From a virus, in the IMG/VR virus record IMGVR_UViG_3300046535_002009, positions 46,061-110,060 of that record: 64,000 nt of DNA, one strand, 5' to 3'. The notes under the pieces are model-generated. The model made no database searches. It was not told where the DNA came from and saw nothing but the letters and a program-made list of their open reading frames with translations. Within the stretch, counting starts at the first letter, position 1; every line of letters begins with the position of its first letter. Position numbers and translations under genes: made by a program. Below are positions 26,054-39,254 of this stretch, in pieces.

Positions 26054-26194
26054 TCAGAGAAGGTCGTCGAGGATGAAGTCGCCGAACCAGACGAGGACGG
26101 CGGCGACGGCCGCCCAGTGGGGGCTGCCGGTGGCGGCCCATGTGATGAGCCCGGCGAGGGCGGCGCCTGCTGTGCCAGCGAGGAAGCGAGTCAC
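26054..26194 (-). CDS. tiny membrane protein, 46 aa
   Basis: GTG 26194 overlaps the VWA stop. Almost the whole peptide is hydrophobic with two potential spans (FLAGTAGAALAGLITWAATG, then WAAVAAVLVWFGDFIL). It may anchor or partner the VWA protein. Confidence 0.6.
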   Translation of the reverse strand: MTRFLAGTAGAALAGLITWAATGSPHWAAVAAVLVWFGDFILDDLL

Positions 26195-26928
26195 CGGACG
26201 ATCCCGGCCGCCCGGGCTGCGGCGAGCCAGGTCGGGTATTCGGCGAGGAGCCGGTCGTAGAGGTCGGCGTCGGTCATGCGGCGGGGGTTGCGGCCGACGG
26301 CGAAGAAGCCAGCGTTGTCGACGGTGCGGCCGCGCATGGTGTCGAGGCCGCGGAGGAACGCGAACTCGCCTGATTCCTGGGGGCCGAAGCCGATGAACTG
26401 CCAGAAGATCGGCAGGTTGCTGGCCTCGCGGAGTACGAGCTGGGTGTCGGCGGCGTCGGTGCAGGCCCCGTCGGTCTGGAAGATGACGAACGCGGGCGTG
26501 GTGCTTCCGCGGTGGGCGTCCATGACCTTGCGCATGGCGGGCGCGTAGCGGGTGCCGCCCCAGGTGATGCCGCCGGTGCGGCGGAGGTTGTCGACGGCTC
26601 CGCGGTGGGAGCCGATTCTGACCTCCATCGGGTCGTAGGCGCGGCTCTGGAAGAACACGACGGGGACGGTGCCGTCGTCGTCGAGGTTTGCGGCCAGGCC
26701 GAGGCTCTGCTCGGCGAGGTGCTGAACGTCGCCGGCGGCGTAGTGGTCGTCCATGGAGCCGGAGTGGTCCAGGACGAGGTAGACGTCGGCGTGTTCGGTG
26801 TTGAGGCCGCGCTTGGTAAGGGAGACGCCGGCGGCCTTGACGAGGCTGACGAGCTCGGGGGCGTGGTCCTGGATGGTGTCGGGGGTGATCGGGGTGGGGC
26901 TGGCGGTCTTGCGGCTGAACAGGCCCAT
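26191..26928 (-). CDS. VWA-domain protein (metal-binding adhesion-type fold), 245 aa
   Basis: The MIDAS motif DHSGS is at residues 54-58 within VYLVLDHSGSMDDHY, with a second acidic loop FQTDGACTD near 138. The fold continues through TPAFVIFQTDG and NLPIFWQFIGFG. Bacterial phage-type VWA proteins of this length resemble the TerF/tellurium-type group. No AAA ATPase partner lies next to it. The start at 26928 has GAAGGAC ahead. It may bind a protein partner or membrane target. Confidence 0.8.
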   Translation of the reverse strand: MGLFSRKTASPTPITPDTIQDHAPELVSLVKAAGVSLTKRGLNTEHADVYLVLDHSGSMDDHYAAGDVQHLAEQSLGLAANLDDDGTVPVVFFQSRAYDPMEVRIGSHRGAVDNLRRTGGITWGGTRYAPAMRKVMDAHRGSTTPAFVIFQTDGACTDAADTQLVLREASNLPIFWQFIGFGPQESGEFAFLRGLDTMRGRTVDNAGFFAVGRNPRRMTDADLYDRLLAEYPTWLAAARAAGIVR

Positions 26929-26954: not shown

Positions 26955-27839
26955 TCACGCGGCGCGTGTGCGTCGGCGGAGTTTGCGCTCGCGGGCCGCG
27001 TCGCGGACGGCGCGGCGGCAGCGCGGGCACGTCGGTGTGCCGATCTGGGTGTGGTCGTAGTAGCCGCCGGGGGTGCCGCAGCGGGCGGTCCAGTCCGGGG
27101 CGGCGGCGGGGTCGTCGATGGTGTCGTCGTCCCAGGCGAGGGGGACGGCCCAGGCGTGGCGGGCGGCGATGGCAAGGGCACCGGTGCGGTCGCGGGTGCG
27201 GACGCCGTGTTCCGCGGGGTCTGCGGCCCACAGCCGGTCGTACAGCTCGTGGACGAGCCGGGCCCGGCTGGAGGTGACACGGGGTCGGCGGCCGTGGGCG
27301 AGGTGCCACAGCTCTTCGCCGTGGGTTCCGCCGAGCCGGGCGAGGACGCGGATGGGCCAGCCGGAGGCGACGAGCGCCTGGACGCGCCGTCGGGAGCCGG
27401 TGCCGTCGACGACGGCTCGGCCGCCGGGCGGCACGCGGGGGATGGCGACGGAGCGGACGGCCCGGGCGTTCTCCTCCCGCATGCGGACCGAGGGCCGTTG
27501 GGCGCCGGCGCGAACGAGGAGTCGGCGCACGACCTTCTCGCTGACGGCGGCCTGCGCTGCGATCTGCTGGTAGGTCATGCCGGCGCGGACGAGGGCCTGC
27601 GCGTGGAGGCGGACGGGCTCCGCGGAAACGTAGGGCTGCCAACGGCCGTAAGCGACCTGGCGGCGCTTGGTGGCGGACCACGCGGTGGAAGCGAGCGTGC
27701 AGCGGCGGCAGCGGCAGCCGTGGTGGGTGTAGGTGGAGTGGCGACCGTGGGTGAGCTGTTCGGTGGGGTTTCCGCCGGTGACGGTGAGGGTGGAGTTGTC
27801 GGTCACTGCGGTCGCCTCTCGGTGGTGCGGGTGGTTCAT
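26955..27839 (-). CDS. HTH protein of a four-gene paralogous array (copy 1), 294 aa
   Basis: The N-terminal part has a Cys/His motif (GCRCRRCT) like that in phage WhiB/HNH-type proteins, then an HTH (MTYQQIAAQAAVSEKVVRRL, residues about 88-110). The shared C-terminal module starts at GSRRRVQALVASGWPIRVLA and ends in WAVPLAWDDDTIDDPAAAP; a final zinc pair (CPRCRR) follows. ATG 27839 overlaps the upstream stop; GTG 27806 is the alternative. Likely DNA-binding. Confidence 0.7.
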   Translation of the reverse strand: MNHPHHREATAVTDNSTLTVTGGNPTEQLTHGRHSTYTHHGCRCRRCTLASTAWSATKRRQVAYGRWQPYVSAEPVRLHAQALVRAGMTYQQIAAQAAVSEKVVRRLLVRAGAQRPSVRMREENARAVRSVAIPRVPPGGRAVVDGTGSRRRVQALVASGWPIRVLARLGGTHGEELWHLAHGRRPRVTSSRARLVHELYDRLWAADPAEHGVRTRDRTGALAIAARHAWAVPLAWDDDTIDDPAAAPDWTARCGTPGGYYDHTQIGTPTCPRCRRAVRDAARERKLRRRTRAA

Positions 27840-29116
27840 GCAGCAGCTGCGGTTGTGCGCGTCTCAACGGAGCGGCACCGGGCGCAGAGCGGGGTGCCGG
27901 TGAGCCGGTGGAGTGCCGGTCCGCGTGGTCGGCCGCAGTGGCCGGTGGAGTCGGGGCTGGCTGCGGGGTCGTCGATGGTGTCGTCGTCCCACGCGAGGGG
28001 GACGGCCCACTCGGCCCGGGTGGCCCGGTCGCGGGCGAGGGCCGCGCGGTCGGCGGGCACGCCGTGCCGGGTCGGGTCCTGGTCCCAGAGGCGGTTGTAG
28101 AGCGCGGCCACCGATTCGTTGGAGGTGAATGCCGGGTTGTCGCCCAGGAGGTTGGTGCGCAACTCGCTCGGCGGGCAGCCGAGGCGGGCGGCGAGGTGCG
28201 GGATCGGCCAGCCGCCGAGGACCAGGGCCTGCAGGCGCCGCTGGGAGCCGATCGCGGAGAGCGTGCGCGACGGCCGCTCGGGCTCGGGCTGGCCTGGCCG
28301 GACCGCCATGAGCTTCTGGGCGTTGGAGGCCCGGAGCTGCTTGGCGGGTTGCCGGCCGGAGCACGGACGGCCGTAGATGAGGTACTCGACGGTGCCGTGG
28401 CTGACGCCGGCGGCGCGCGCGATGGCCTTCGCGCTCATGCCGCCGGAGCGAAGGAGTTCGACGTGGGCGCGCGCCGGTTGTGCGTCGACCATCGTGGGGC
28501 GGCGCGTCTGTGCGGCAGCGGCGGGGGCGGCCGTCCTCAGTGGGGCGGGCTCTGCGGAGGCGGAGCGGCGTGACTCCTGGTCACGGGTGGACCGGCAGAC
28601 CTCGCAGTACCGGACGGTTCCGTCGTCGCGGAAGCGGCCGTGGACGGCCAGGTCGTGGCCGTGCTTGCAGCGTTCGACCCGGCGGCGGATGCCGCGGACC
28701 TCTGCGAGGACCTGGCGGCACTTGTGCCGGGTCTCGAAGTCGTCCATGTGGTCGGGGGAGATGCAGGCGCGGTCACCGCAGCCGGGCCGTGTGACGCCGG
28801 TGGGCCAGCGGCCGTGCCTGATCTTGAAAGCGACACGGCGGGCCGTGTACTCGCGGCCGGCATGCCGCAGAATTGGGCTGTTGTCGGCGTTCGTGGTGGG
28901 ACCGGCCCAGTACCGGTGGCCGTCCGGCCCTTCCTCACAGAGCGCCCACCACGCCGCTTCGAGGGTCGTAGTGGTGCGGTGGCTGACGGGCAGGCCCATG
29001 TCGGCGCGGAGCGCTGCCACCGACGTGGCGTGGGTGCGCAGATGGCGGGCAACGGACCGGTTCGACCATCCGGCCGCGATCAACTCTCGGGCCTGCTCGG
29101 CCTTCTGCGCCTTCAC
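27836..29116 (-). CDS. HTH protein of the paralogous array (copy 2), with HNH-like insert, 426 aa
   Basis: Several modules are visible: an N-terminal HTH (WSNRSVARHLRTHATSVAAL), an HNH_3-like stretch (GCGDRACISPDHMDDFETR near 117-135) with a CKHGH and CEVCR zinc site, a second HTH (MSAKAIARAAGVSHGTVEYL), and the shared C-terminal module (GSQRRLQALVLGGWPIPHLA to WAVPLAWDDDTIDDPAASP). The longest member of the array. GTG 29116 overlaps the upstream stop. Confidence 0.7.
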   Translation of the reverse strand: MKAQKAEQARELIAAGWSNRSVARHLRTHATSVAALRADMGLPVSHRTTTTLEAAWWALCEEGPDGHRYWAGPTTNADNSPILRHAGREYTARRVAFKIRHGRWPTGVTRPGCGDRACISPDHMDDFETRHKCRQVLAEVRGIRRRVERCKHGHDLAVHGRFRDDGTVRYCEVCRSTRDQESRRSASAEPAPLRTAAPAAAAQTRRPTMVDAQPARAHVELLRSGGMSAKAIARAAGVSHGTVEYLIYGRPCSGRQPAKQLRASNAQKLMAVRPGQPEPERPSRTLSAIGSQRRLQALVLGGWPIPHLAARLGCPPSELRTNLLGDNPAFTSNESVAALYNRLWDQDPTRHGVPADRAALARDRATRAEWAVPLAWDDDTIDDPAASPDSTGHCGRPRGPALHRLTGTPLCARCRSVETRTTAAAA

Positions 29117-29913
29117 TCCTGTGCTCCCTTCCAGCTGGCGGCCTTCCAGCGCTCGATGGTTCGTTCGGCGACGCCGACGCGCGCGCCGATGGCGGCCGAG
29201 GTGAGTCCGCGGCGGTGGAGGCGGCGTGCCTCCGCGATCCGCTCCGCGCGGGTGGTGCCCTCCTCCGCGGGCACCTCGGCCGGGTCGGGCTCGGCGGTGT
29301 CCGGACGGGCAGCCGGGTCGTCGATGTCGGCGCCCCACGCCAGGGGCCCGTGCCATCCGGCTCTGGCGGCCTTCATGCGGGACCGGGTCGAGGGTCCAGG
29401 TACCAGCGCCCACTGCCGGTAGAGGGCTGTGATTGCCCGCGCGGTGTCGATGTGGACCCGGGGGTTCGGGCGCTGGTTGGGGATGCCGTTGGTGATGCGG
29501 CTGATCGACGTCTCGTCGATGGGCAGCCGGCTGGCCAGCAGCGGGCGGGTGTAGCCGAAGGCGATGAGCGCCCGGAGGCGGCGTTGACTGCCGGTGGCGT
29601 CGACGAAGAACGTGACTGGCGTGTTGGGGAGTTGTGCCTGCTCGATGCGGCGGGCAACGCTCCGGTGAGTGGTGGGGTTCTCGTTGTTGGCCAGCTCGGT
29701 GATCTGCGAACGTGCGACGCCGGTCGCTTCGGCGATGGCGCTGACGGTGTGGCCGGCGTCGACCCAGGTCCGCACGCGTTCGACGGTGGGGCCAGCAGGG
29801 ATGCGCCGCTTGCCCTCCTTCGAGGTCCTGTATCGCCATGACTTGCAGTAGCGGCGGTTGTACTCCCGAGACCGGCCGGTGGCAGGGGCGGGCGCCTGCT
29901 CCAGGACGGTCAT
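29113..29913 (-). CDS. HTH protein of the paralogous array (copy 3), 266 aa
   Basis: An HTH near residues 55-75 (HTVSAIAEATGVARSQITEL) precedes the shared module (GSQRRLRALIAFGYTRPLLA to GPLAWGADIDDPAARP), and a further HTH ends the protein (RGLTSAAIGARVGVAERTIE). The first 40 residues are basic (REYNRRYCKSWRYRTSKEGK). ATG 29913 overlaps copy 4's stop. Confidence 0.7.
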   Translation of the reverse strand: MTVLEQAPAPATGRSREYNRRYCKSWRYRTSKEGKRRIPAGPTVERVRTWVDAGHTVSAIAEATGVARSQITELANNENPTTHRSVARRIEQAQLPNTPVTFFVDATGSQRRLRALIAFGYTRPLLASRLPIDETSISRITNGIPNQRPNPRVHIDTARAITALYRQWALVPGPSTRSRMKAARAGWHGPLAWGADIDDPAARPDTAEPDPAEVPAEEGTTRAERIAEARRLHRRGLTSAAIGARVGVAERTIERWKAASWKGAQE

Positions 29914-30677
29914 GCTGCCGTCCCCTCGCGGCCGGAGCCGGCGGCGCGCGGCCCAGCGGCCGGGTCGTCGATGTCCGACCCCCAGGCGGAGGGCGGCAGC
30001 CACCCGCGCTGGGCCGCCCGCTCCCGCGTGCGGGAGGAGGGGCCCGGGATGTCGGTCCACTGCTCGTACAGGTCCCGGATCTCGGCTGCCCGGGCGATGT
30101 TGACGAGCGTGGTGAACCCGGTCGCGTACCGGCTGATAGCCCCGGGGTTCGTGCCGAGGGCCGCGGCGATGGACTCCAGCGGATACCCGACGGCCTGGAG
30201 CGCCTGGATACGGCGACGGCTGCCGACGGCGCTGATGTGACCCGACCCTTCCACGACCGGCGGATTCGGCTCGGCGCCGGCCACGGGCCGTGCGATCGCC
30301 GTCAGTTCGATGACTCCGCTGGCCATCGCCAGCGCGACGGCGTGCGCCCGGCAGGTCGCTCCGCTCACCTGGTAGAAGCGGTGCAGGTGGGACTTGATCG
30401 TGTTCTCGGTCAGGCCCATCTGCCGGGCGATCTGGGCGTTGGAGAGGCCGTTCGCGGCGCCCGTGAGGATCAGCCGCTGCTGGTGTGAGGCCTCCCCGGA
30501 GCGCAGGCGGCAGGAGGCCTCCGGGCCGAGGTCCGGCTTCGCGGCCCGGATCACCGCAGCGCTCAGGATGTCGGCGTGCCGGACGGTGATCGGCAGGTCG
30601 TGGGTGTCGGCGGCCTTCAGCATCGCGCCGTGGATCCGGCGCTGCATGAGGCCGTAGCCGCGGGGCGCCGGGATCAT
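29910..30677 (-). CDS. LuxR-type HTH protein of the paralogous array (copy 4), 255 aa
   Basis: The N-terminal half has a GerE/LuxR-type HTH (LSNAQIARQMGLTENTIKSH, about residues 78-97) after a helical lead-in; the shared C-terminal module runs from GSRRRIQALQAVGYPLESIA to PPSAWGSDIDDPAAGP. The sequence after its HTH (HAVALAMASGV) also matches the single-domain LuxR protein at 32352 (HAVAIAMQRGL). ATG 30677 overlaps the RuvC-like gene's stop. Confidence 0.7.
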   Translation of the reverse strand: MIPAPRGYGLMQRRIHGAMLKAADTHDLPITVRHADILSAAVIRAAKPDLGPEASCRLRSGEASHQQRLILTGAANGLSNAQIARQMGLTENTIKSHLHRFYQVSGATCRAHAVALAMASGVIELTAIARPVAGAEPNPPVVEGSGHISAVGSRRRIQALQAVGYPLESIAAALGTNPGAISRYATGFTTLVNIARAAEIRDLYEQWTDIPGPSSRTRERAAQRGWLPPSAWGSDIDDPAAGPRAAGSGREGTAA

Positions 30678-31231
30678 GCCGTCACCTCAGGGATGTCGGG
30701 CCACACGGCGCGCTCGATGGCGACTCGGTTGACCTGCGGTACGACGGTCAGGGGCTGACCCAGCCAGTCGAGTCCGGCTGCCATGAGCGCGACGGCGTCG
30801 GCACGGTTGTCGTTGCCTGCCGTCTCGAACTGCGGCCAGCGGCGGGCGACGGCGTCGATGACGGCTCCCTTGTCGCCGCTGCCCTTGCCGCAGGCGTACT
30901 GGGCGCGCTGCCGCGGGTCCATGAGTCCGATCGGGACACCGTCGTCGCTCAGCGCGTCGTAGAGCGCCCACCAGAGCCAGCCGCGCTCGTGGGCGCCGCC
31001 GGCCGAGCGTGACAGGGCCGCGGTCTCCATGACGACCAGGCGCGGGTGTCCGACCGCGAGGAGGATCTCGTCCCGGACGTTGCGCATCGCGGTACGCCGC
31101 AAGCCGTGGGGGATCTTGGTGATGGGGTTCTTCTTGTCGGTGTACCCGATGGTCCTCGTCCAGCCGCTGGAGGAGGCCAGGCCGGTCGCGGTGAGGGACG
31201 GGTCGAGTCCGACGACGGTGAGGGCCTCCAT
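30674..31231 (-). CDS. RuvC-like Holliday junction resolvase, 185 aa
   Basis: An RNase H-type fold with the expected acidic residues: VVGLDPSLTATG (Asp10), VVMETAALS (Glu69) and GNDNRADAVALM (Asp141 and Asp145). This is the usual phage RuvC length. Such enzymes cut branched DNA before packaging or during recombination-dependent replication. It sits within the recombination part of the early operon (DnaQ-like exonuclease and RecB-like nuclease upstream). ATG 31231 overlaps the preceding stop by 1 bp. Confidence 0.85.
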   Translation of the reverse strand: MEALTVVGLDPSLTATGLASSSGWTRTIGYTDKKNPITKIPHGLRRTAMRNVRDEILLAVGHPRLVVMETAALSRSAGGAHERGWLWWALYDALSDDGVPIGLMDPRQRAQYACGKGSGDKGAVIDAVARRWPQFETAGNDNRADAVALMAAGLDWLGQPLTVVPQVNRVAIERAVWPDIPEVTA

Positions 31232-32351: not shown

Positions 32352-32609
32352 TCAGGCAGCAAGATCGGTGGGGGTGGACAGGTCGGCCGTGAAGGCGAGC
32401 AGGCCACGCTGCATCGCGATGGCGACGGCGTGCGGGGTGGTCCTGGCTCCCAGGCGGCGGCGCATGGTTCCTGCCTGGGTGCGGACGGTCTGGTGCGACA
32501 CGCGGTGGAGTGCTGCGACCTGGCGGAGGGTGAAGCCCTCGGCGAGGCCGTGGAGTACCCGCATCTCGGCGACGGACAGCTCACCGGGCGGGATCGGGTA
32601 CGTGCTCAC
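32352..32609 (-). CDS. single-domain LuxR/GerE-type HTH protein, 85 aa
   Basis: The protein is just a GerE HTH: LSVAEMRVLHGLAEGFTLRQ, VSHQTVRTQAGTMRRRLG, then HAVAIAMQRGL. No receiver domain is present, so activity would depend on amount or partners. GTG 32609 overlaps the exonuclease stop. It shares features with copy 4 of the HTH array. Confidence 0.75.
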   Translation of the reverse strand: MSTYPIPPGELSVAEMRVLHGLAEGFTLRQVAALHRVSHQTVRTQAGTMRRRLGARTTPHAVAIAMQRGLLAFTADLSTPTDLAA

Positions 32610-36074: not shown

Positions 36075-36263
36075 CTATGCCGCCGTGAGCTGGGCGGTCT
36101 GTCGTGCGGTGCGCTTGGCCATCACTCGCTCCATCGCGGGGGCGAGGACGGTGCGGAGTTCGGCGAGGAGTTCGGGCGTGGGCGGCGGAGCTGCTGCAAC
36201 TGCGCAGCGAATTTCGGCCACAGTCGCTTCGCCGAGTAGGGCGAGTCGCTGAGCCCTCGTCAC
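36075..36263 (-). CDS. small helical protein, 62 aa
   Basis: GTG 36263 overlaps the Cro-like gene's stop. Mostly helical (RAQRLALLGEATVAEIRCAV; AELRTVLAPAMERVMAKR). Second gene from the leftward early promoter; may act in the lysis-lysogeny choice. Unknown family. Confidence 0.65.
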   Translation of the reverse strand: MTRAQRLALLGEATVAEIRCAVAAAPPPTPELLAELRTVLAPAMERVMAKRTARQTAQLTAA

Positions 36264-36475
36264 TTCGCTTCTGCCGATGCGTAGTAGTCGTCCAGCTTCT
36301 GCTTGTACGCGTCGGCGATCTTTCGGACGGTGGCCGTCGTGGGCTCGGTCTTGCCCCGCAGAAGGCGGCTGACGTGCCCACGATTAAGGCCGGTGCGTCG
36401 GGCGATGAGGGTTGCGCTGGTGTCACCCGCACCCTTGGTGGTGTCCCGGAAGAGGGCGCTGTCGAAGTCGGACAT
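36260..36475 (-). CDS. Cro-like XRE HTH protein, 71 aa
   Basis: The protein is a single XRE HTH (ATLIARRTGLNRGHVSRLLR, followed by TATVRKIADAYKQ). GGAGGTGA stands seven bases before ATG 36475. As the first gene leftward from a shared control region with the repressor at 36709, its position is that of a phage cro. It probably binds the same operators. Confidence 0.8.
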   Translation of the reverse strand: MSDFDSALFRDTTKGAGDTSATLIARRTGLNRGHVSRLLRGKTEPTTATVRKIADAYKQKLDDYYASAEAK

Positions 36476-36516
36476 AGGTCACCTCCCTGGGCGTTGCCCC
36501 AGTGACTGCTGGTGTC

Positions 36517-36701
36517 TGACAGGAACCATAGCCCAAACTGCTGCGCTTTGACAGCAACCCGGAAATGGAGATTCCCGCAGGTCGACACGCCAGGACATGC
36601 GACACCTGCGGTATCGACGACATAGCCGGATCCGCATGCACGTGCACGGCGGCTGACCTGTACTGTTGCTAGCTGACAGCAGCGCACCCCGGCGCTAACC
36701 T
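36517..36701. promoter_or_regulatory. immunity operators and divergent early/repressor promoters
   Basis: Three related sites on the plus strand: TGACAGGAA (36517-36525), TGACAGCAA (36549-36557) and TGACAGCAG (36674-36682). The first two flank a leftward -10 (TATGGT, minus strand 36530-36525), the second covering its -35 region. The third overlaps a rightward promoter: CTGACA (36673), 17 bp, TAACCT (36696), which would start transcription at the ATG of the repressor (leaderless). Confidence 0.65.
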
Positions 36702-36708
36702 CCGAGCC

Positions 36709-37167
36709 ATGGACGGTGCCCACCGCATGGAACCAGGACCCCAGGCCCTCGCCGACTACGTGCGCGAACACGCGCCGGCGGCCGGCTACACGCTCACCGA
36801 GTGGGGCGAGCCGGCACGCCTTGCCCGCGACTCCGGCATGGACACTGGCACCCTGACGCGCATCCTCAAAGGTGAACGCGTCCCGCGCCCCGCACAGCTC
36901 TGGCCGCTGAGCCAGGCACTCGGCCGGCCCTTCATGGAGGTCATGGTCGTATCCGGAACAGTTCCCCCCGAATCGGTCGCGCATATGCCACAACCCGCAG
37001 TAGCATCAACGCCTATCACTGCTGATGCTCTGGCAGATGAGTGGGGCGTCCACGCCGAAGGCGACCGCGCATACATCGCGGAGACCCTCAAGCGCCTGCG
37101 CGAACACGCCAAGTCCCAGAAGGCCCGACAGAAGCCGGAGCACGGGAGCAGCGCCGCGAACGGATAA
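36709..37167 (+). CDS. probable immunity repressor (XRE HTH), 152 aa
   Basis: An HTH lies at about residues 38-62 (ARLARDSGMDTGTLTRILKG, then VPRPAQLWPLSQALG). A linker and a C-terminal helical tail (AETLKRLREHAKSQKARQ) follow. It is divergent from the Cro-like gene and reads from a promoter whose -10 is eight bases from the ATG, so the message is probably leaderless, as for many actinophage repressors. A second ATG at 36727 is possible. Confidence 0.75.
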   Translation: MDGAHRMEPGPQALADYVREHAPAAGYTLTEWGEPARLARDSGMDTGTLTRILKGERVPRPAQLWPLSQALGRPFMEVMVVSGTVPPESVAHMPQPAVASTPITADALADEWGVHAEGDRAYIAETLKRLREHAKSQKARQKPEHGSSAANG

Positions 37168-37721: not shown

Positions 37722-39254
37722 CTACGTCGCGACGGGCTCCAGGACCTTGGGCCACTCCTCGAACCCAGGCTGCCCGAAGAAGATCAGGTTCACCCGGGGC
37801 CCAACCGGCTGGCCGTGACCCTTCCTCAACGCCGGCAAGACCTCGACCCGCAGGACCTTGCGGATGACGTGGCGCTTCTGCTCAAGGACGAGCTCCTCCT
37901 CGTCGTTCCACATCTCGTCCAGCGCATCCGGATCCATCCCGATGAGACGGTCCAGCAGCGGGTCACCCACCGACAGAAGCCCCTTCACGATGGCCTCGGA
38001 CGCCCGGGCCAGCGGGATCAGCCGCTGCTCCAGCTCGGCGAGCGAGGCGACGGTCAGGCCGGGCAGGCCGGTCACCGGGTCGAACTCGGTCGCCCGCGCC
38101 CGCGCGTCTCGGAGCTGCTCGGTGATCGCCTTCAGCTTGGCCCGCTCCCGTTCCAGTTCACCGCTCGACGCCTGTCGGCGCATCGCCGCGGCTGCCTTCT
38201 CGGAGGACAGCCACTGCAGCAGGGCCTCCTCGACGTAGGCCTCCAGGAGCTGCTTCATGATGGACAAGTGCTCCACGCGGCACCGGTAGAGCGCGCCACG
38301 GCGGTACTTGGGCTGTGCCAGCCGCACCGTCATCGTGCTGTTGCGGATGTCCACGTCGGCACGGCAGAGCGAGCAGAGCGCGATCCCGGACAGCAGGTGC
38401 TCGACGCCGGTCGTGTGGGTCGTCCTGCGGTCCGGGTCGTCGAGCATCCGCTGGACACGCCAGAAGACGTCCTCGTCGACGAGCCCCTTCCAGGCAGCCG
38501 GATACTCGGTGTCGTGGTGGACTCGGATCCCGATGTACGCCCTGTTCTGCAGGATCGCGCGGATGCCCTGGTCCGTCATCAGCGGGCGGCGGGGCAGCAT
38601 GAAGGCGACGAGGCGCTTGATGGAGATCTTCTGGTCCGCCATGTTGAACAGCTTGACGAGTACGGGCGCTTCGTCCGGGTGGGCGACCTGCCCGAGAAGT
38701 TCGCCAGTGTCCGGGTCATAGACCCGCTTGAAGCCGAAAGGCGGGGTGCCGGTCATCCAGCCCCGCTGGGCGCTGAGGCGTGCGGTCCGGACGTTGCGGG
38801 CGATGATCGTGTCGCCCTCGCCCTCGGACTCCACGGCGTCCCGGGCGGTCTCGCGCCGGTCGGATGCCTTGGTGAGGTCGTAGACCCGGCCGTCGTAGCA
38901 CCAGAGGACGCCGGTCTCCATGCACAGCGCGCGGAGCCTCACGTACCCGTCGAGCGTGCGGTTCGTGCGGGACCTCTCGGCGTACACGATCACGTCGATT
39001 TTGCCCGCGCGGACGTCTTCGACCATACGCTCGTACTCGTCACGGACCTTCGTGGCGCGACTGCTTGCCGAACGGTCGCGGTCCTCGTAGAAGTCGACAA
39101 TCTCCCAGCCGCGCTCGTTGCACTCGGCGCGGCACTCGGCGAACTGGTCCTTGATGGATCGTCCGCGGTAGCGCGGGTCTCGAGATGCCCGACCATACAC
39201 AGCGGCCCGCAGCGGGCGAGTCGCCTGCGCGGGCACCGAGTACAGGTAGTTCAT
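37722..39254 (-). CDS. int: large serine integrase, 510 aa
   Basis: The catalytic domain starts at RAAVYGRASRDPRYRGRS, with the nucleophile Ser24 and the conserved Arg residues; VIVYAERSRTNR holds the second active-site arginine. The recombinase domain contains GWMTGTPPFGFKRV, and RAYIGIRVHH marks its end; the zinc ribbon is CSLCRADVDIRN with a later RCRVEH. A coiled coil follows (GELERERAKLKAITEQLRD). Length is normal for phiC31/TG1-type integrases (500-610). Its start is 34 bp from the predicted attP. It integrates phage DNA at a chromosomal attB, and needs the gp3-like factor to excise. Confidence 0.9.
   Translation of the reverse strand: MNYLYSVPAQATRPLRAAVYGRASRDPRYRGRSIKDQFAECRAECNERGWEIVDFYEDRDRSASSRATKVRDEYERMVEDVRAGKIDVIVYAERSRTNRTLDGYVRLRALCMETGVLWCYDGRVYDLTKASDRRETARDAVESEGEGDTIIARNVRTARLSAQRGWMTGTPPFGFKRVYDPDTGELLGQVAHPDEAPVLVKLFNMADQKISIKRLVAFMLPRRPLMTDQGIRAILQNRAYIGIRVHHDTEYPAAWKGLVDEDVFWRVQRMLDDPDRRTTHTTGVEHLLSGIALCSLCRADVDIRNSTMTVRLAQPKYRRGALYRCRVEHLSIMKQLLEAYVEEALLQWLSSEKAAAAMRRQASSGELERERAKLKAITEQLRDARARATEFDPVTGLPGLTVASLAELEQRLIPLARASEAIVKGLLSVGDPLLDRLIGMDPDALDEMWNDEEELVLEQKRHVIRKVLRVEVLPALRKGHGQPVGPRVNLIFFGQPGFEEWPKVLEPVAT

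Follow-up and report, generated by a model that had tools for sequence, protein, structure and literature searches.

The closest described relatives of the proteins considered here form the family phrog_1590. Across 199 distinct members, its usual layout begins with a Cys motif or some other N-terminus, continues with a first HTH (HTH1) and a second HTH with a conserved tail (HTH2 plus tail), and ends with either a third HTH (HTH3; detected by profile in 108 members) or a Cys knuckle (50 members). Our literature search found no papers on the family, and the sources searched gave no function for any member. Its genes mostly occur singly: 160 of about 180 distinct loci are single-copy, about 17 have two copies (some near-identical), one has three (L045), and only the locus described below has four. 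Likewise, the 49 virus records that were searched whole held mostly one copy, a few two and one three, and about 45 of 296 Streptomyces genomes (~15%) have strong matches, mostly single, in a search that scored 6-8 candidates per genome. The question of whether such genes always occur in arrays is thus answered in the negative: arrays are occasional rather than defining, and as a family rule they are ruled out by the predominance of single copies in phages, viral loci and Streptomyces genomes alike.

The window, i.e., the whole stretch of 64,000 bases that was analysed, spans bases 46,061-110,060 of a 110,060-base IMG/VR virus record and has a G+C content of about 72%. At the DNA level, the neighbours of the region are mostly Streptomyces phages and plasmids; a few are phages of Arthrobacter and Mycobacterium. 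The right side of the window encodes a tape measure protein and an endolysin. The integrase is followed by a CI-like/Cro-like switch, and from there a minus-strand block leads by way of exonuclease, DnaQ-like subunit and RuvC-like resolvase genes to the array of the four copies (P4 to P1), then to a gene for a VWA-type protein and, at some distance, one for a replication initiation protein. Landmarks of this stretch are:

37722-39254: integrase, judged from its sequence to be of the serine type; mid-window, beside the CI-like repressor
36709-37167, plus strand: CI-like repressor (phrog_3949, 1e-16), reading away from the presumptive early operon
36260-36475, minus strand: Cro-like HTH protein, head of the presumptive early operon
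30674-31231, minus strand: RuvC-like resolvase, directly upstream of P4 with a 4-base overlap (phrog_159, 2e-33)

The divergent CI-like and Cro-like HTH genes (36260-37167), which adjoin the serine integrase, probably constitute a lysis-lysogeny switch. By analogy with other temperate phages, we read the minus-strand block as a presumptive early (replication/recombination) operon, in which the array sits downstream of this switch and would be expressed early. The genes that flank the array have relatives on plasmids as well: the RuvC-like gene shows about 70% DNA identity both to a gene of Streptomyces phage ZL12 and to genes of ~90-kb plasmids such as pSAM1, and the VWA-type protein directly downstream of the array (26191-26928; phrog_5359) has similar counterparts on several large Streptomyces plasmids.

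The array itself is composed as follows, all features being on the minus strand:

29910-30677: P4, 255 aa; LuxR/GerE-type HTH at the N-terminus plus the shared module, without the usual HTH1
30330-30488: P4 LuxR-type HTH (residues 64-116; PF00196)
29943-30239: P4 shared module (HTH2 plus W/acidic tail)
29113-29913: P3, 266 aa; HTH1, HTH2/tail and C-terminal HTH3, near the common family architecture
29638-29805: P3 HTH1 (residues 37-92)
29299-29607: P3 shared module (residues 103-205)
29119-29250: P3 C-terminal HTH3 (residues 222-265; HTH_23)
27836-29116: P2, 426 aa, GTG start; HTH and HNH-like domain, then HTH1, module and C-terminal Cys knuckle
28565-29107: P2 HNH-like domain with its own N-terminal HTH; the general-base His position is not His
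28301-28501: P2 HTH1 (HTH_38, 2e-7)
27947-28267: P2 shared module
26955-27839: P1, 294 aa; Cys motif HG(x)nGCRCxxC, HTH1, module and C-terminal Cys knuckle, a common A-type member
27693-27749: P1 N-terminal Cys motif, sequence HGRHSTYTHHGCRCRRC
27093-27416: P1 shared module

A prior sequence-only reading had placed four consecutive overlapping genes at 26955-30677, and these coordinates are correct: P4, P3 and P2 each overlap the next gene by 4 bases, and the GC content at third codon positions (0.88-0.93) is of the coding type in all four. That reading also held that no named system resembled the array; in fact, P1-P4 belong to phrog_1590, which is present in hundreds of actinophages. The family profile matches P1 (1e-45), P2 (2e-46, residues 171-391) and P3 (3e-43, profile positions 23-271 of 281) over about 220-250 residues. 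The match to P4 (6e-32) covers only profile positions 114-220, i.e., the module, with HTH1 replaced by the LuxR HTH. P1-P3 share with the family the core of HTH1 and HTH2/tail, and the array has the family's early/replication neighbourhood; P1 fits the layout with Cys motif and knuckle, and P3 that with HTH3, though it is without a clear Cys motif. The locus differs from the rest of the family, which usually has one copy, in its four copies and in the HNH-like and LuxR front ends of P2 and P4. The proposal that the N-terminal parts are all different is accordingly correct for P2, with its extra HNH-like domain, and for P4, but not among P1, P2 and P3, whose HTH1 regions are homologous.

The module common to the four proteins spans about 100 residues, with pairwise identities of 42-51% and z-scores of 17.6-30.6 against shuffled sequence. 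In the four pairs that were run, BLAST yielded E-values from 7e-14 to 2e-40. The similarity of these modules, which the sequence-only reading had noticed and which could have proved undetectable by profile or structure comparison, is therefore far above chance by identity, z-score and BLAST, and all four fall into one profile family: the modules are homologous. An AlphaFold model of P3 built on 80 sequences (mean pLDDT 88.7, pTM 0.63) resolves HTH1 (37-92), HTH2 with its tail (103-205) and HTH3 (222-265). The model indicates that the module, first described as a common C-terminal part, is indeed shared by all four but is not just a C-terminal appendage: it has an HTH of its own (P3 helices 107-142, pLDDT mostly >90), so that it is predicted to comprise HTH2 and an extended W/acidic tail. 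No Pfam or NCBIfam family matched the module in profile searches, and no solved structure matched at E <= 0.001; with regard to an XRE/Cro-CI repressor fold, SinR, C-proteins and AcrIIA15 were among the top structural matches, but with E >= 0.38. The top sequence match among solved structures, 8vd6, is a repeat protein that aligns to HTH1 in weak pieces and is not a convincing homologue. Among viral folds, the closest belong to HTH proteins of actinophages and to one 'antirepressor'.

All 80 aligned sequences agree at R111, R112 and L116 (P3 numbering), in the first helix of HTH2, and the mean entropy is 1.18 bits in that helix against 3.17 bits in the HTH2 recognition helix. No other helix of the family varies as much as this one, while the scaffold is conserved, and this contrast is the one hint at the combinatorial action that the sequence-only reading suggested. 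The RRxxAL motif of helix 1 and the W-(acidic)-IDDP tail (mean entropy 1.09 bits) occur in P1-P4 and in nearly all of the 80 aligned sequences, a figure inflated for the tail since the family searches were seeded with tail peptides and patterns. Among 31 modules recovered by profile search only, with no tail patterns, 30 have RR..AL and nearly all have a W...DDP-like tail.

Residues 4-208 of P2 match phrog_826 (1e-24), a family labelled 'HNH endonuclease'. Its representatives in Streptomyces phages SF3, YDN12 and Vondra align with P2 residues 4-184 at 30-35% identity, with the C...C...H and CxxC positions conserved; unlike them, P2 runs on into a full phrog_1590 protein. HNH families of the HxC type have their general-base His two positions ahead of the first Cys. 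P2, like the other phrog_826-like sequences examined, lacks it: the position is Pro in P2 and A, P, G, S or V in 54 of 54 viral relatives (L291-L344). The Asn position of CxNPxH is Ser in P2 and Ala, Thr or Ser in the relatives, the search pattern itself having selected A/S/T there. Since the general-base position is never His, an active homing endonuclease in P2 is rejected as a likely explanation; a Zn domain that binds DNA is more probable than a nuclease. More generally, the common labelling of this Streptomyces-phage subfamily as active endonucleases looks doubtful. A protein spanning both the HNH-like domain and the module turned up in none of the other viral loci and in none of 296 Streptomyces genomes, for each of which just 6-8 candidates were scored. 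HNH-like genes adjoin module genes in seven loci (L040, L110, L148, L173, L132, L210 and L081), which makes a fusion of neighbouring genes a plausible origin for P2.

The front end of P4 is of a different kind. Its N-terminal HTH matches GerE (PF00196) at 4e-10, with 39.6 bits against a cut-off of 23.5, as well as Sigma70_r4_2 at 2e-10. P4 thereby resembles LuxR/GerE regulators over residues 64-116, but it has no match to a sensor or receiver domain, and its HTH precedes the phrog_1590 module instead of being C-terminal. LuxR and module were not found together in one protein in 394 Streptomyces genomes (6-8 candidates scored per genome) or elsewhere in the sampled viral loci, and a P4-specific scan of viral contigs returned no close relative. 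The same operon encodes a small LuxR/sigma-like HTH protein (32352-32609) belonging to the same PHROG as the P4 N-terminus (phrog_3282), a possible source of the fusion. A comparable substitution is seen in L084 (6213-7007) and L088, in which a WhiB domain is fused straight onto the phrog_1590 module in place of HTH1. As in P4, a transcription-factor domain replaces HTH1 before the same module, the fused domain being WhiB, not LuxR or HNH.

A tree of 199 cores, whose short sequences leave many supports weak, assigns P1 and P2 to clade A (support 0.62) and the other two proteins, P3 and P4, to clade B (0.96), so that the array order P4-P3-P2-P1 reads B-B-A-A. The placement of the two pairs in different clades rules out a fresh fourfold duplication. 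Neighbour pairs of B followed by A recur in L112, L118, L141 and L198, which come from Streptomyces genomes and viral contigs. Because their modules show 81% DNA identity over 104 nt, P1 and P2 may be a younger pair or may have exchanged sequence. A tblastn search with P3 hit 294 actinophage records at one place each, and one with P1 hit 138 records at 170 places; the excess of 32 places fits 32 Brevibacterium AGM phages with two each (gp41 and gp44 in AGM1). The earlier suggestion of duplication with swapped front ends is borne out by the tandem paralogy and by the replacement of the N-terminal part with LuxR in P4, an HNH-like domain in P2 and WhiB elsewhere. With these three front ends on the same module, N-terminal exchange is a real habit of the phrog_1590 family.

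The explanation that we favour as a whole, with a probability of roughly 0.6, is that the carrier is a temperate Streptomyces-type phage and that P1-P4 are tandem, diverged phrog_1590 copies in its early operon, transcription regulators that were duplicated and re-headed and that act at different target sites. Each protein would bind DNA via two or three predicted HTH domains on a common scaffold, consisting of HTH2, with the invariant Arg-Arg in its helix 1, and then the conserved Trp/acidic tail. After release of the CI/Cro-like switch, the proteins would regulate transcription of phage, and possibly host, genes; copies with different targets would have arisen by duplication, by exchange of the N-terminal part (Cys motif with HTH1, HNH-like DNA-binding domain or LuxR HTH) and by drifting recognition helices. 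Transcription regulation is favoured because of the HTH folds, the position downstream of a repressor, which recurs for the relatives in Hilltopfarm and AGM1, the WhiB transcription-factor genes that adjoin some relatives, and the WhiB and LuxR fusions. Relatives also lie among RecE/RecT, DnaQ and RusA genes, a setting like that of the array in the window. Some Gordonia relatives carry the label 'antirepressor', by annotation only. A search of the surrounding 14 kb revealed no clear repeated operator-like sites, the best-supported repeats being paralogous coding sequence. A more elaborate form of this proposal, to which we assign a low probability, envisions a modular regulatory set: the scaffold of RR helix and W/acidic tail would recruit one common partner, be it RNA polymerase, a sigma factor or sister copies, and the swapped N-terminal domains, together with recognition helices that have diverged, would direct each copy to different promoters, possibly as A/B heterodimers.

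We infer a role in transcription rather than in replication or recombination, and the latter is the main rival. The proteins could instead act directly on DNA as origin- or junction-binding or architectural factors, in keeping with their neighbours RuvC, DnaQ, exonuclease and replication initiator in the window and with the RecE/RecT, RusA, endonuclease VII, primase and SSB genes that neighbour the relatives in other phages. We regard this as unlikely since HTH1 gives way to a WhiB or LuxR-type domain in some members, and a single origin would have no need of several tandem copies whose recognition helices have diverged.

Tandem duplication might, on the other hand, have left a mostly redundant array under weak selection, in which one or two copies are functional; most relatives do manage with a single copy, and four are found here alone. 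That all four frames are intact with the conserved residues kept, and that the copies derive from two old clades whose B-then-A pairing recurs independently, makes this less likely still. Equally improbable, in our estimate, is that the copies diversify against host targets in takeover or counter-defence, with copy number and N-termini turning over in an arms race. Such a scenario would agree with the highly variable recognition helices and N-termini, with the patchy copy number and with the inhibition of mycobacterial growth by some overexpressed phage HTH and WhiB proteins, reported for these classes and not for phrog_1590 in particular (PMC11797047). However, we found no host target or link to defence, and the conserved tail and the location of the genes speak for a core role in the phage.

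The family being already known, what is new here is the occurrence of four copies in a row and the architectures of P2 and P4, unseen elsewhere in the samples searched; the four-copy array is a single case. It displays the modularity of the family in one place, with clades A and B side by side and HNH-like and LuxR front ends, in addition to the WhiB versions elsewhere. For a family so widespread in actinophages and Streptomyces genomes, yet lacking an assigned function, the presence of two clades and several front ends on the same module makes this locus a good test bed for the role of the conserved module.
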